Origin: Pelobacter seleniigenes DSM 18267
GTDB lineage: Bacteria > Desulfobacterota > Desulfuromonadia > Desulfuromonadales > Geopsychrobacteraceae
Assembly: GCF_000711225.1 (NCBI RefSeq)
Contig: NZ_JOMG01000002.1
Location: 2,554,501 to 2,618,500 of the forward strand
Length of the DNA: 64,000 bases
Direction of reading: 5' to 3'
Shown here: positions 14,533 through 29,193 of the stretch, one piece after another
How positions within the stretch are numbered: the first letter of the stretch is position 1
Layout: each line of letters starts with the position of its first letter
The notes under the pieces: generated by a model
What the model was told of the DNA's origin: nothing
The model's database searches: none
What the model saw: the letters and a program-made list of their open reading frames with translations, nothing else
Translations under genes and position numbers: made by a program

Positions 14533-15189
14533 TTATTGCGGAATCACGTAGTAAAAAACCGCAAAAAAATGAAAGCAGCTGCCGGCCAGCACAAACAGGT
14601 GCCAGATCGCGTGTCCGTAGGGGAGACGTTTCCAGGCGTAGAAAATGACCCCGAAGGTATAGGCCAGTCCGCCCAGCAGCAGCAGGGTGAAGCCGGTCGG
14701 GGCCAGGACCGAGAGCATTGGTTTAATGGCGATAATGACGGTCCAGCCCATAATTAGATAAAGGGTGGTCGAGACCCCGCGCAACTGGGCGTAGCGGGTT
14801 GTCTTCAGCAGAATGCCGAGCAGGGCAATGCCCCAGACGATGCCGAACAGCGACCAGCCCCAGGGGCCGCGCAGGTTGACCAGGGTGAACGGGGTATAGG
14901 TTCCGGCAATCAGCAGATAAATGGCCGAATGGTCGAAGACCCGCAGCAGGCGTTTGACCCGGGGGGAGGGGATGCTGTGGTAAAGGGTTGACGACAGATA
15001 CAACAACAGCAGGGTCCCGCCGAAAATACTGCAGGAAACAATGTGCCAGGCATTCCCATGCAGACTGGCAAAGACCACCAGCATGACCAACCCCAAGATC
15101 GCCAGCAGGGTTCCAATCCCATGGGTCACACTGTTGGCAATCTCTTCTCCCACACTGTAGCCGGTTATTTCGTTGCGTTTCATGGTCAT
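14533..15189 (-). CDS. Hemolysin III family (YqfA/PAQR-like) membrane protein
   Basis: About 218 residues with seven hydrophobic segments and the family's conserved sites: EEIANSVTHGIGT, YHSIPSP, DHSAIYLLIAGTYTP and HLFVLAGSCFHFFAV. The metal-site histidines and Asp are in place. The start at 15189 is chosen because GGGAG lies six to seven bases upstream; a longer frame to 15219 lacks a site. The physiological role of the family is uncertain, and haemolytic activity should not be assumed. Convergent with rnr. Confidence 0.88.
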   Translation of the reverse strand: MTMKRNEITGYSVGEEIANSVTHGIGTLLAILGLVMLVVFASLHGNAWHIVSCSIFGGTLLLLYLSSTLYHSIPSPRVKRLLRVFDHSAIYLLIAGTYTPFTLVNLRGPWGWSLFGIVWGIALLGILLKTTRYAQLRGVSTTLYLIMGWTVIIAIKPMLSVLAPTGFTLLLLGGLAYTFGVIFYAWKRLPYGHAIWHLFVLAGSCFHFFAVFYYVIPQ

Positions 15190-15307
15190 TCTTTGCTCCC
15201 TTTGAAGGCTGAATATCACCCTCTCAATTTAGCACGAGTGACCATGGGAAAGAGCTGTAGGCAGTTGTTTTTACAAAACTATTACCAAAGGAGTAAAAGT
15301 AGGTGCT

Positions 15308-16531
15308 TCATTGGTCAGCGGCCGGACCGTTGCGCTGTTGATAAGCGCGGGCGATGCCACCGGTCGAGGTTTCCCGGTAGAGCAGGGGCAGGGCGTGGCC
15401 GGTCTCGCGCATGACCGCGGTGATTTCATCAAAGCTGATTTTATGTTCACCGCCGGCCAGCAGGGCAAAATGACAGCAGCTTAAGGCCCGGGTGGCGGCG
15501 TGGGCATTGCGTTCGATGCAGGGGATCTGGACCAGCCCGGCGACCGGATCACAGGTCAGGCCAAGGTGATGCTCCAGCCCCATCTCGGCAGCGTATTCGA
15601 TCTGCCTGATGCTGCCGCCCTGGAGCTGGGTCGCCGCCGCCGCGGCCATGGCGCAGGCGGTGCCGATTTCCCCCTGGCAGCCGACCTCGGCTCCGGAAAT
15701 GGAGGCGTTTTGCTTGACCAGGTTGCCGATCAGCCCGGCGGTCGCCAGGGCATGCAGAATGTCCTCATAACGGCAGGCCAGGGTTTCGTTCAGATAGCGC
15801 AAAACCGCCGGCAGAACGCCGCCGGCCCCGCAGGTCGGCGCCGTGGCGATCATGCCGCCGGAGGCATTTTCTTCGGCCACGGCCAGAGCATAGGACCAGA
15901 GCCGGGCATTGTTCTGCAGATGGGTGCTATAGAGGGTGGCTTTGCGATAAAAATCGGCCGCTTTGCGGGCCAGGCCGAGACCTCCGGGGAGCACTCCGGC
16001 ATGACTCAGTCCATTGCGGATAGACGAAGTCATGACATCCCAGACATTATCCAGGTAATCGAGGAAGGGGCGCTCCTCATGGTTGATCACGAATTCCCAG
16101 AGGGATTCCCCGCTCTGCTCCAGGGCGCTGATAATTGCGGCCATGGTGGTCAGCGGGTAGCGTGACAGCTCGGTCGGCCGCCCCTCCTGGTCACTGAGCA
16201 GGGCGCCACCGCCGCTACTGTATTCGTCCCGGTTGGCCAGCAGAGCCCCCTCTTCGTCGAGGGCCTCAAAACGCATGCCGTTGGGATGGCGTGGGAGCTG
16301 TTCCTGTGGCCGCCAGAGCAGCTCAAGCTGGGATGGCGGAATGACCTGAGACAGCGCCTGGTCGGTCAGGTGGCCGCGGCCGGTGGCGGCAAGGCTGCCG
16401 AACAGGGTCACCCGATAACGGGCGGCGCCGGGGTAAGCGGCGACAAAATTGCGCGCGGCCCGCTGCGGAGCCATGGTGTGGCTACTGGACGGTCCGGTTC
16501 CAATGCGATAAATATTGCAGATCGATTCCAT
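15308..16531 (-). CDS. sdaA: L-serine dehydratase (L-serine ammonia-lyase), iron-sulfur type, single chain
   Basis: Deaminates L-serine to pyruvate and ammonia with a [4Fe-4S] cluster. The beta-type domain comes first (IGTGPSSSHTMAP), then the alpha-type domain with TAPTCGAGG, GAEVGCQGEIGTAC and CDPVAGLVQIPCIERN, which hold the cluster cysteines. At 407 residues it is shorter than the usual ~455, mainly in the beta part. The start is supported by AAGGAG eight bases upstream. No serine transporter is adjacent. Confidence 0.93.
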   Translation of the reverse strand: MESICNIYRIGTGPSSSHTMAPQRAARNFVAAYPGAARYRVTLFGSLAATGRGHLTDQALSQVIPPSQLELLWRPQEQLPRHPNGMRFEALDEEGALLANRDEYSSGGGALLSDQEGRPTELSRYPLTTMAAIISALEQSGESLWEFVINHEERPFLDYLDNVWDVMTSSIRNGLSHAGVLPGGLGLARKAADFYRKATLYSTHLQNNARLWSYALAVAEENASGGMIATAPTCGAGGVLPAVLRYLNETLACRYEDILHALATAGLIGNLVKQNASISGAEVGCQGEIGTACAMAAAAATQLQGGSIRQIEYAAEMGLEHHLGLTCDPVAGLVQIPCIERNAHAATRALSCCHFALLAGGEHKISFDEITAVMRETGHALPLLYRETSTGGIARAYQQRNGPAADQ

Positions 16532-16860: not shown

Positions 16861-16885
16861 AAATATAACAAAAAAAGTTATATTT
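16861..16885 (+). repeat. 9-bp perfect inverted repeat next to the small-RNA promoter
   Basis: AAATATAAC, seven A, GTTATATTT. It ends six bases before the -35 box, a position compatible with an activator or repressor site. Confidence 0.5.
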
Positions 16886-16890
16886 TTTGT

Positions 16891-16919
16891 TTGACAAAGG
16901 TGACTTATTTGGTTATAAA
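16891..16919 (+). promoter_or_regulatory. Near-consensus sigma-70 promoter
   Basis: TTGACA at 16891-16896, a 17-base spacer, then TATAAA at 16914-16919. Transcription would begin near 16926. No start codon with a ribosome site follows; a terminator does. Confidence 0.75.
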
Positions 16920-16925
16920 TTAACC

Positions 16926-17037
16926 ATCGACGCTTTGTTGTGGCAGGCGAAGCGGCGATAGCCAAAGTAGATATCTTTCGAGAAACCTCTCAAAATCTTA
17001 CCCCGTGGTCCCCCTCCTGGCCACGGGGCTTTTTTTT
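16926..17037 (+). ncRNA. Candidate small RNA, about 110 nt
   Basis: Defined by a near-perfect promoter at its left end and a strong intrinsic terminator at its right end, with no open frame of note between. Three stems can be drawn: ATCGaCGCTT paired with AAGCGgCGAT (about 16925-16960, one internal mismatch), a small GAGA-AACC-TCTC hairpin, and the terminator stem. The terminator loop contains CCCCCTCCT, complementary to Shine-Dalgarno sequences, so pairing with mRNA leaders is a possible mode of action (inference). I do not recognise it as 6S, SRP, tmRNA, RNase P or a known riboswitch class. Confidence 0.65.
17001..17037 (+). terminator. Rho-independent terminator of the small-RNA candidate
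   Basis: CCCCGTGG (17001-17008) pairs with CCACGGGG (17021-17028), followed by eight T residues (17030-17037). Confidence 0.85.
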
Positions 17038-17373: not shown

Positions 17374-19008
<1,635 letters not shown>

Positions 19009-27412: not shown

Positions 27413-27556
27413 CGTCTCGCAGGCTCCGTCCCCATCTGTCCCAGGCTGGTGTTCCAGCAGGGCAGGAATTGGCACCGGACAGTCTGGTTGCTCACAGAGA
27501 ACCCCGGTTGCCGTGGCTTCAAAGGGCCTTTCCCTCCACCACTCTTGATAAAGACG
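27413..27556 (-). promoter_or_regulatory. SAM-I (S-box) riboswitch aptamer upstream of metX
   Basis: Read on the minus strand, the S-box core is clear: TTTATCAAGAG, GGTGGAGGGA, GGCCC, TGAAGCC, CGGCAACC, then GGTGCCAATTCC. The P1 helix closes with CGTCT at the 5' side and AGACG at the 3' side. It is followed by a terminator and then metX, so high SAM should switch metX off. Confidence 0.93.
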
Positions 27557-29057: not shown

Positions 29058-29152
29058 AAACTAATTTCTGCTGTGATTTGACGCATTGAAATGACGTAGT
29101 AAAATAAAGAAAAAAGTCACTTTACGGAAGGCCGTGGCAGCCTTCTGTCTTG

Positions 29153-29193
29153 CCCTGGACGTCCTTTTCCCTCCTGGACGCCAGGGTTTTTTT
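29153..29193 (+). terminator. Terminator after the ammonium transporter gene
   Basis: CCCTGG-A-CGTCC pairs with GGACG-CCAGGG (one bulged A) and is followed by seven T residues. Confidence 0.75.

Follow-up and report, generated by a model that had tools for sequence, protein, structure and literature searches.

A predicted small RNA gene beside sdaA in Pelobacter seleniigenes and its multicopy family across the Desulfuromonadales

Locus, promoter and upstream repeat

The analyzed window, a 64 kb stretch of the Pelobacter seleniigenes DSM 18267 genome, contains an intergenic block encoding a predicted sRNA of approximately 112 nt (16926–17037, plus strand), the start of which was placed by means of the −10 element; the sequence-only reading of this DNA had expected an RNA of about 110 bases. 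Two genes on the minus strand lie to the left. The nearer one, sdaA (15308–16531), encodes an L-serine dehydratase-like protein and is kept as the divergent neighbor in some relatives, and the farther one encodes an HlyIII family membrane protein (14533–15219) and is the divergent neighbor of the sRNA in most relatives. Downstream, a gene for an ABC-F type ATPase follows on the plus strand (17374–19008), a neighbor that is not conserved. Genes were named after Pfam or from their reading frames, the latter in the case of sdaA and the ABC-F gene. Elsewhere in the window, a SAM riboswitch (RF00162, 73.5 bits) was located at 27429–27554 on the minus strand.

The promoter proposed earlier was confirmed at 16891–16919 on the plus strand, with TTGACA as the −35 element (16891–16896) and TATAAA as the −10 element (16914–16919), separated by 17 nt. 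When both strands of the 64 kb were scanned for TTGACA-N16-18-TATAAW, the sRNA promoter was the single match. Together with 12 other copies of the promoter set, it constitutes type A, characterized by TTGACA (found in 13 of 13 copies) and an AT-rich upstream block.

Within this block lies an inverted repeat, AAATATAAC-N7-GTTATATTT (16861–16885, no strand assigned), with arms at 16861–16869 and 16877–16885 and a spacer of 7 nt. Its nine base pairs were as first described, while the gap to TTGACA measures five bases and not six. The idea that a protein binds here as at an operator found no support, as the repeat is not a family trait: ATAAC-N7-GTTAT is intact in only about 6 of the 13 type A copies and is missing from the source genome's own second copy. 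Furthermore, when these AT-rich 37 nt were shuffled by dinucleotides, approximately 5% of the shuffled sequences reached a 9-bp repeat as well, and the repeat is thus weak if considered alone. The AT-rich stretch immediately 5' of the −35 element looks like an UP element, which fits better than an operator. In three type A-like copies (L013, L014, L018), the promoter is preceded by another inverted repeat, TTTTGAAA...TTTCAAAA.

RNA structure, conservation and distribution

The region 16920–17037 folds with −39.3 kcal/mol (z = −2.85), a value equaled by 2 of 200 shuffles. All structural elements lie on the plus strand. At the 5' end, the single-mismatch stem noted previously was found as a hairpin of 11 bp with strong covariation (16926–16959), its arms (16926–16937 and 16948–16959) being interrupted by one A·G mismatch and its loop UUGUGGCAGG (16938–16947) being near-invariant in the family. 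The linker holds a single-stranded, anti-Shine-Dalgarno-like motif, ACCUCUC (16985–16991), which reads ACCUCC in many siblings. The RNA ends in an intrinsic terminator (17001–17028) with arms at 17001–17010 and 17019–17028, a loop CCCCUCCU (17011–17018) complementary to Shine-Dalgarno sequences, and a U tract of eight T (17030–17037). The GC hairpin, the eight T and the CCUCC loop had been recognized correctly before, whereas the stem comprises 10 bp, 8 of them G-C pairs, and not 8 bp in total. No conserved ORF was found in the RNA, as a common start codon is absent and some indels of the alignment have lengths not divisible by three. The own promoter, the intrinsic terminator with its U tract and the intergenic location are features of Hfq-type sRNAs.

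A DNA search of 60 relatives, mostly MAGs, returned near-full-length homologues at 76–87% identity in nine genomes of the taxonomic family. A single genome, G014, contributed three remoter copies at 72–73% identity, and the source genome has a paralogue at C2:2836551. The promoter, both hairpins and their loops are retained in at least 12 relatives, and HlyIII or sdaA is the divergent left neighbor in at least 12 loci (tblastn). On the right side, the neighbor varies between the ABC-F ATPase found here and an AAA ATPase or MFS-like protein elsewhere. A role of the RNA in cis, as leader or attenuator for the ABC-F gene, would agree with the common strand and with a terminator approximately 340 nt before that gene, but it is highly improbable, since the RNA is kept in relatives with an AAA ATPase or MFS-like gene downstream, and other copies lie between the genes for GAPDH and malic enzyme or for glutamate-cysteine ligase and transketolase. 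Attenuation of the ABC-F gene is thus contradicted by the non-conserved downstream gene. As the RNA keeps its left flank and not its right one, it is more likely an independent gene than a leader, which agrees with the free-standing sRNA gene of the sequence-only reading. Loss of the block beside kept flanking genes was looked for as well, and the block was retained in the relatives. With regards to the conservation of the whole block with covariation, the promoter and RNA at 16891–17037 are a gene and not a product of chance.

The most conserved element is the loop of the 5' hairpin and not the terminator loop; both this loop and the sibling family had been missed previously. In a gapless alignment of 49 hairpins (typical sequence CATCRAMRNNYTGTTGTGGCAGGCR), 11 of 39 columns are invariant, and UUGUGGCAGG deviates in two outliers only (L011 and L019). 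Eight of the 11 pairs changed on both sides, and the covariation score of 0.45 compares with 0.187 in shuffles, none of which (0/500) matched it. As a control, the partner was slid by one column, upon which covariation fell to 0.18 or less. The full type A alignment supports both helices with 93.6% of cells paired; in the terminator helix, three pairs changed on both sides, and for one of these pairs this is seen in five sequences. Covariation among Desulfuromonadales homologues, suggested earlier as a check, was therefore found in both stems. The window RNA combines what defines the family: the 5' hairpin CATCRA...UGUUGUGGCAGGC with its covarying stem, an own promoter and a CCUCC terminator loop.

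A covariance model of the hairpin (R1) matched 79 of 136 Desulfuromonadales genomes at E 0.01 and 77 at E 0.001, and none of the remaining genomes of the class. Outside the Desulfuromonadales, a 395-genome phylum sample gave no R1 match under a stricter threshold and filters, which weak members may escape. Up to 6 copies per genome are listed; these numbers are lower bounds, since R1 missed the third copy of the source genome at its threshold. A pattern scan of GTDB contigs gave matches in Desulfuromusa kysingii, Malonomonas rubra, Geoalkalibacter and Desulfuromonas, and in several MAGs titled Desulfuromonadales, Desulfuromonadaceae, Geobacteraceae or Deltaproteobacteria. The source genome itself harbors three siblings. 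The window copy adjoins sdaA, the second type A sibling (L031) is located between the genes for GAPDH and malic enzyme, and the third, of type B (L211, G000:C2 ~803487, minus strand), between those for glutamate-cysteine ligase and transketolase; the latter carries the palindrome described below and a GGUGUGGCAGUC hairpin.

Rfam 15 gave no family at gathering score over the RNA in the window and 20 sibling loci, in accordance with the earlier statement that it matches no known RNA class. Hence, the RNA belongs to an order-wide multicopy sRNA family that is absent from Rfam 15, yet is found in over half of the genomes sampled from an order whose cultured members include Desulfuromusa kysingii and Malonomonas rubra. 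Our literature search found no paper describing the RNA. Multicopy conserved elements of Geobacter are listed in PMC2700814, whose element lists sit in its supplements, and the lack of hairpin matches in the rest of the class is to be set against those elements.

Promoter types of the siblings

The second promoter type, B (n = 78), is marked by the palindrome CTGTGC-N4-GCACAG, which precedes the predicted start by approximately 85 bases. With one mismatch at most, it was present in 60 of the 78 promoters, while shuffles never fell below three mismatches. Around −41, TTTACG-N8-CGT was found with up to one mismatch in 63 of 78, followed by a −10 element. The type A copy of the window does not carry the palindrome.

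The palindrome is rare, with 0 matches for a reversed control pattern over ten genomes. In G088 and G089, it also occurs in the intergenic regions preceding degP/htrA and a sensor kinase gene (MRLxLKHQI...). This kinase gene is preceded by the palindrome in G048, G054 and G055 too, and G089 has a further site between dgkA and the gene for a tail-specific protease. A type B hairpin is directly divergent from the kinase gene, at a distance of about 125 bases, in six genomes that belong to one family (G049, G094–G098). The kinase is of the HAMP/HATPase type (HisKA_3 in one copy), and a gene for a receiver-domain protein is adjacent; an NtrC-type regulator as the palindrome-binding protein was dropped on these grounds. 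Being present in 126 of 136 genomes, the kinase makes co-occurrence with the sRNA uninformative. Since degP, the kinase gene and dgkA have the palindrome in common with them, the type B siblings may respond to envelope stress, and the promoter sequences suggest such control for type B, not extended to the type A copy of the window. RybB, MicA and CpxQ are envelope-stress sRNAs. The palindrome at degP, the sensor kinase and dgkA makes the type B siblings similar to them, unlike the palindrome-free copy of the window.

Some further features were observed at these loci. Palindromes at 2197 and 3850 of L203 and at 1890 and 3591 of L204 lie before degP/htrA and the sensor kinase gene and outline a candidate envelope-stress regulon. 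Type B transcripts in which two hairpins follow each other, with a GUGGCAG-like motif in their loops, were seen in L025, L046, L052, L057, L184 and L185, and two to three tandem type B copies, approximately 230–265 bases apart in one intergenic region, in L069, L037, L051, L045 and L021. A c-di-GMP-I riboswitch (55.6 bits; L147, 4732–4807, plus strand) is situated near a type B pair.

Putative anti-Shine-Dalgarno loops and related RNAs

CCUCC is found in the loop of 50 of 56 family terminators and of 10 of 105 other terminators from the same loci, the latter count being inflated because terminator similarity had served to retrieve some of the loci. The terminator stems of types A and B are unrelated and have the CCUCC core in common. 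Many siblings possess a second C-rich segment in the linker (ACCUCC or ACCUCUC). Keeping CCUCC in unpaired loops while the stems vary is typical of anti-Shine-Dalgarno sRNAs that work like NfeR1, and the masking of ribosome sites, as put forward previously for this loop, fits a motif that was kept by selection. An hfq gene was present in 10 of 10 genomes searched, including the source genome. For NfeR1 of Sinorhizobium (S. meliloti), which has loop CCUCCUCCC motifs on variable stems, silencing of mRNA via the ribosome site was demonstrated (PMC10746234). On account of the conserved CCUCC on variable stems, the NfeR1 pattern and the encoded hfq, we consider the window RNA to be probably a trans-acting anti-Shine-Dalgarno sRNA, one of three siblings within the order-wide family.

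According to this mechanism, transcription of the RNA would start at a strong sigma-70 promoter of its own and stop at the intrinsic terminator. Two C-rich segments, ACCUCUC in the linker and CCCCUCCU in the terminator loop, are predicted to stay unpaired, and with the help of Hfq both would pair with ribosome-binding sites in target mRNAs, thereby blocking translation. The 5' hairpin may protect the RNA end, and its loop UUGUGGCAGG could be recognized by a protein or by one further RNA.

For comparison, NfeR1/alpha-r14 and the 'cuckoo' RNAs of the Alphaproteobacteria likewise present CCUCC anti-Shine-Dalgarno motifs in loops on variable stems and occur as homologous copies. However, NfeR1/alpha-r14 RNAs belong to another phylum and consist of three hairpins, each with CCUCCUCCC, and none with UUGUGGCAGG. 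The window RNA has UUGUGGCAGG as its 5' loop and, of its main loops, CCUCC in the terminator loop only, and Rfam gives no NfeR1/alpha-r14 match for it. NmsRA and NmsRB of Neisseria are tandem siblings with predicted anti-Shine-Dalgarno motifs that act directly on TCA-cycle mRNAs (PMC5362039); as siblings with such motifs they resemble the present RNAs, but their sequence is unrelated to the window RNA as far as Rfam shows. By analogy, the best reading is a new family with a mechanism that would be similar to NfeR1 or NmsR.

Some points count against anti-Shine-Dalgarno silencing: the CCUCC core is generic, the linker shows little sequence conservation between the types, and the near-invariant 5' loop is not accounted for by the masking of ribosome sites. 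Genome-wide, the 5' loop sequence or its complement showed no clear excess: one pattern for the complement gave 8 matches, two of them the sRNAs themselves, versus 1, and a near-equivalent pattern 10 versus 8 in the reversed control, so that an enrichment was discarded. Instead, the multicopy UUGUGGCAGG loop could sequester a dedicated RNA-binding protein in a Csr/Rsm-like manner, with CCUCC being secondary. This is conceivable, as conservation is highest in this loop, some transcripts contain two such hairpins, and type B promoters have elements in common with a two-component system, as is the case for Rsm RNAs. Nevertheless, we regard a sponge as unlikely, since there is usually one motif per RNA, a CsrA-type GGA loop is lacking (neither main loop of the window RNA contains the GGA of CsrB/RsmY-type sponges), and CCUCC in the terminator loop is conserved independently.

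A wider scheme can tentatively be drawn as an order-specific global circuit, although we would not bet on it. Here, a two-component envelope-stress system would drive the type B siblings via CTGTGC-N4-GCACAG, constitutive type A copies would provide a basal level, UUGUGGCAGG would bind a dedicated RNA-binding protein, and CCUCC would shut down translation of many envelope or metabolic mRNAs. The work yields a covariance model and a copy map, together with a candidate regulon and two segments whose pairing can be tested. The near-invariant loop UUGUGGCAGG points to a putative partner and is the best reason for more work on the RNA.

The best sub-threshold Rfam match was atoC RNA (RF01733), with 22.7 bits in the window at a gathering cut-off of 50 bits. 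The CCCUCCU-loop terminator hairpin of atoC RNA is present in the window RNA, and both types occur in the same order and genomes with an own promoter, a hairpin and the terminator loop CCCUCCUGG. Despite this top match, the common loop and the likewise free-standing atoC homologues with promoter and terminator, it is very unlikely that the window RNA is a divergent member of atoC RNA and no separate family: every copy remained below the cut-off (28.3 bits or less in every homologue), the 5' hairpin differs from that of atoC, and the source genome encodes both, the better atoC homologue lying at 29096–29193 of the window. By architecture, atoC homologues are a sister type and by score a separate family. 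The homologue at 29096–29193 (plus strand; 38.4 bits, sub-threshold) is located 3' of an amtB-like gene and has its own hairpin and CCCUCCUGG terminator. The atoC RNA was listed as probably cis-regulatory by Weinberg et al. 2010 (PMC2864571). In the genomes studied here, its homologues look free-standing, with promoter, hairpin and CCCUCCUGG-type terminator, and not cis-regulatory, and the label may deserve another look.
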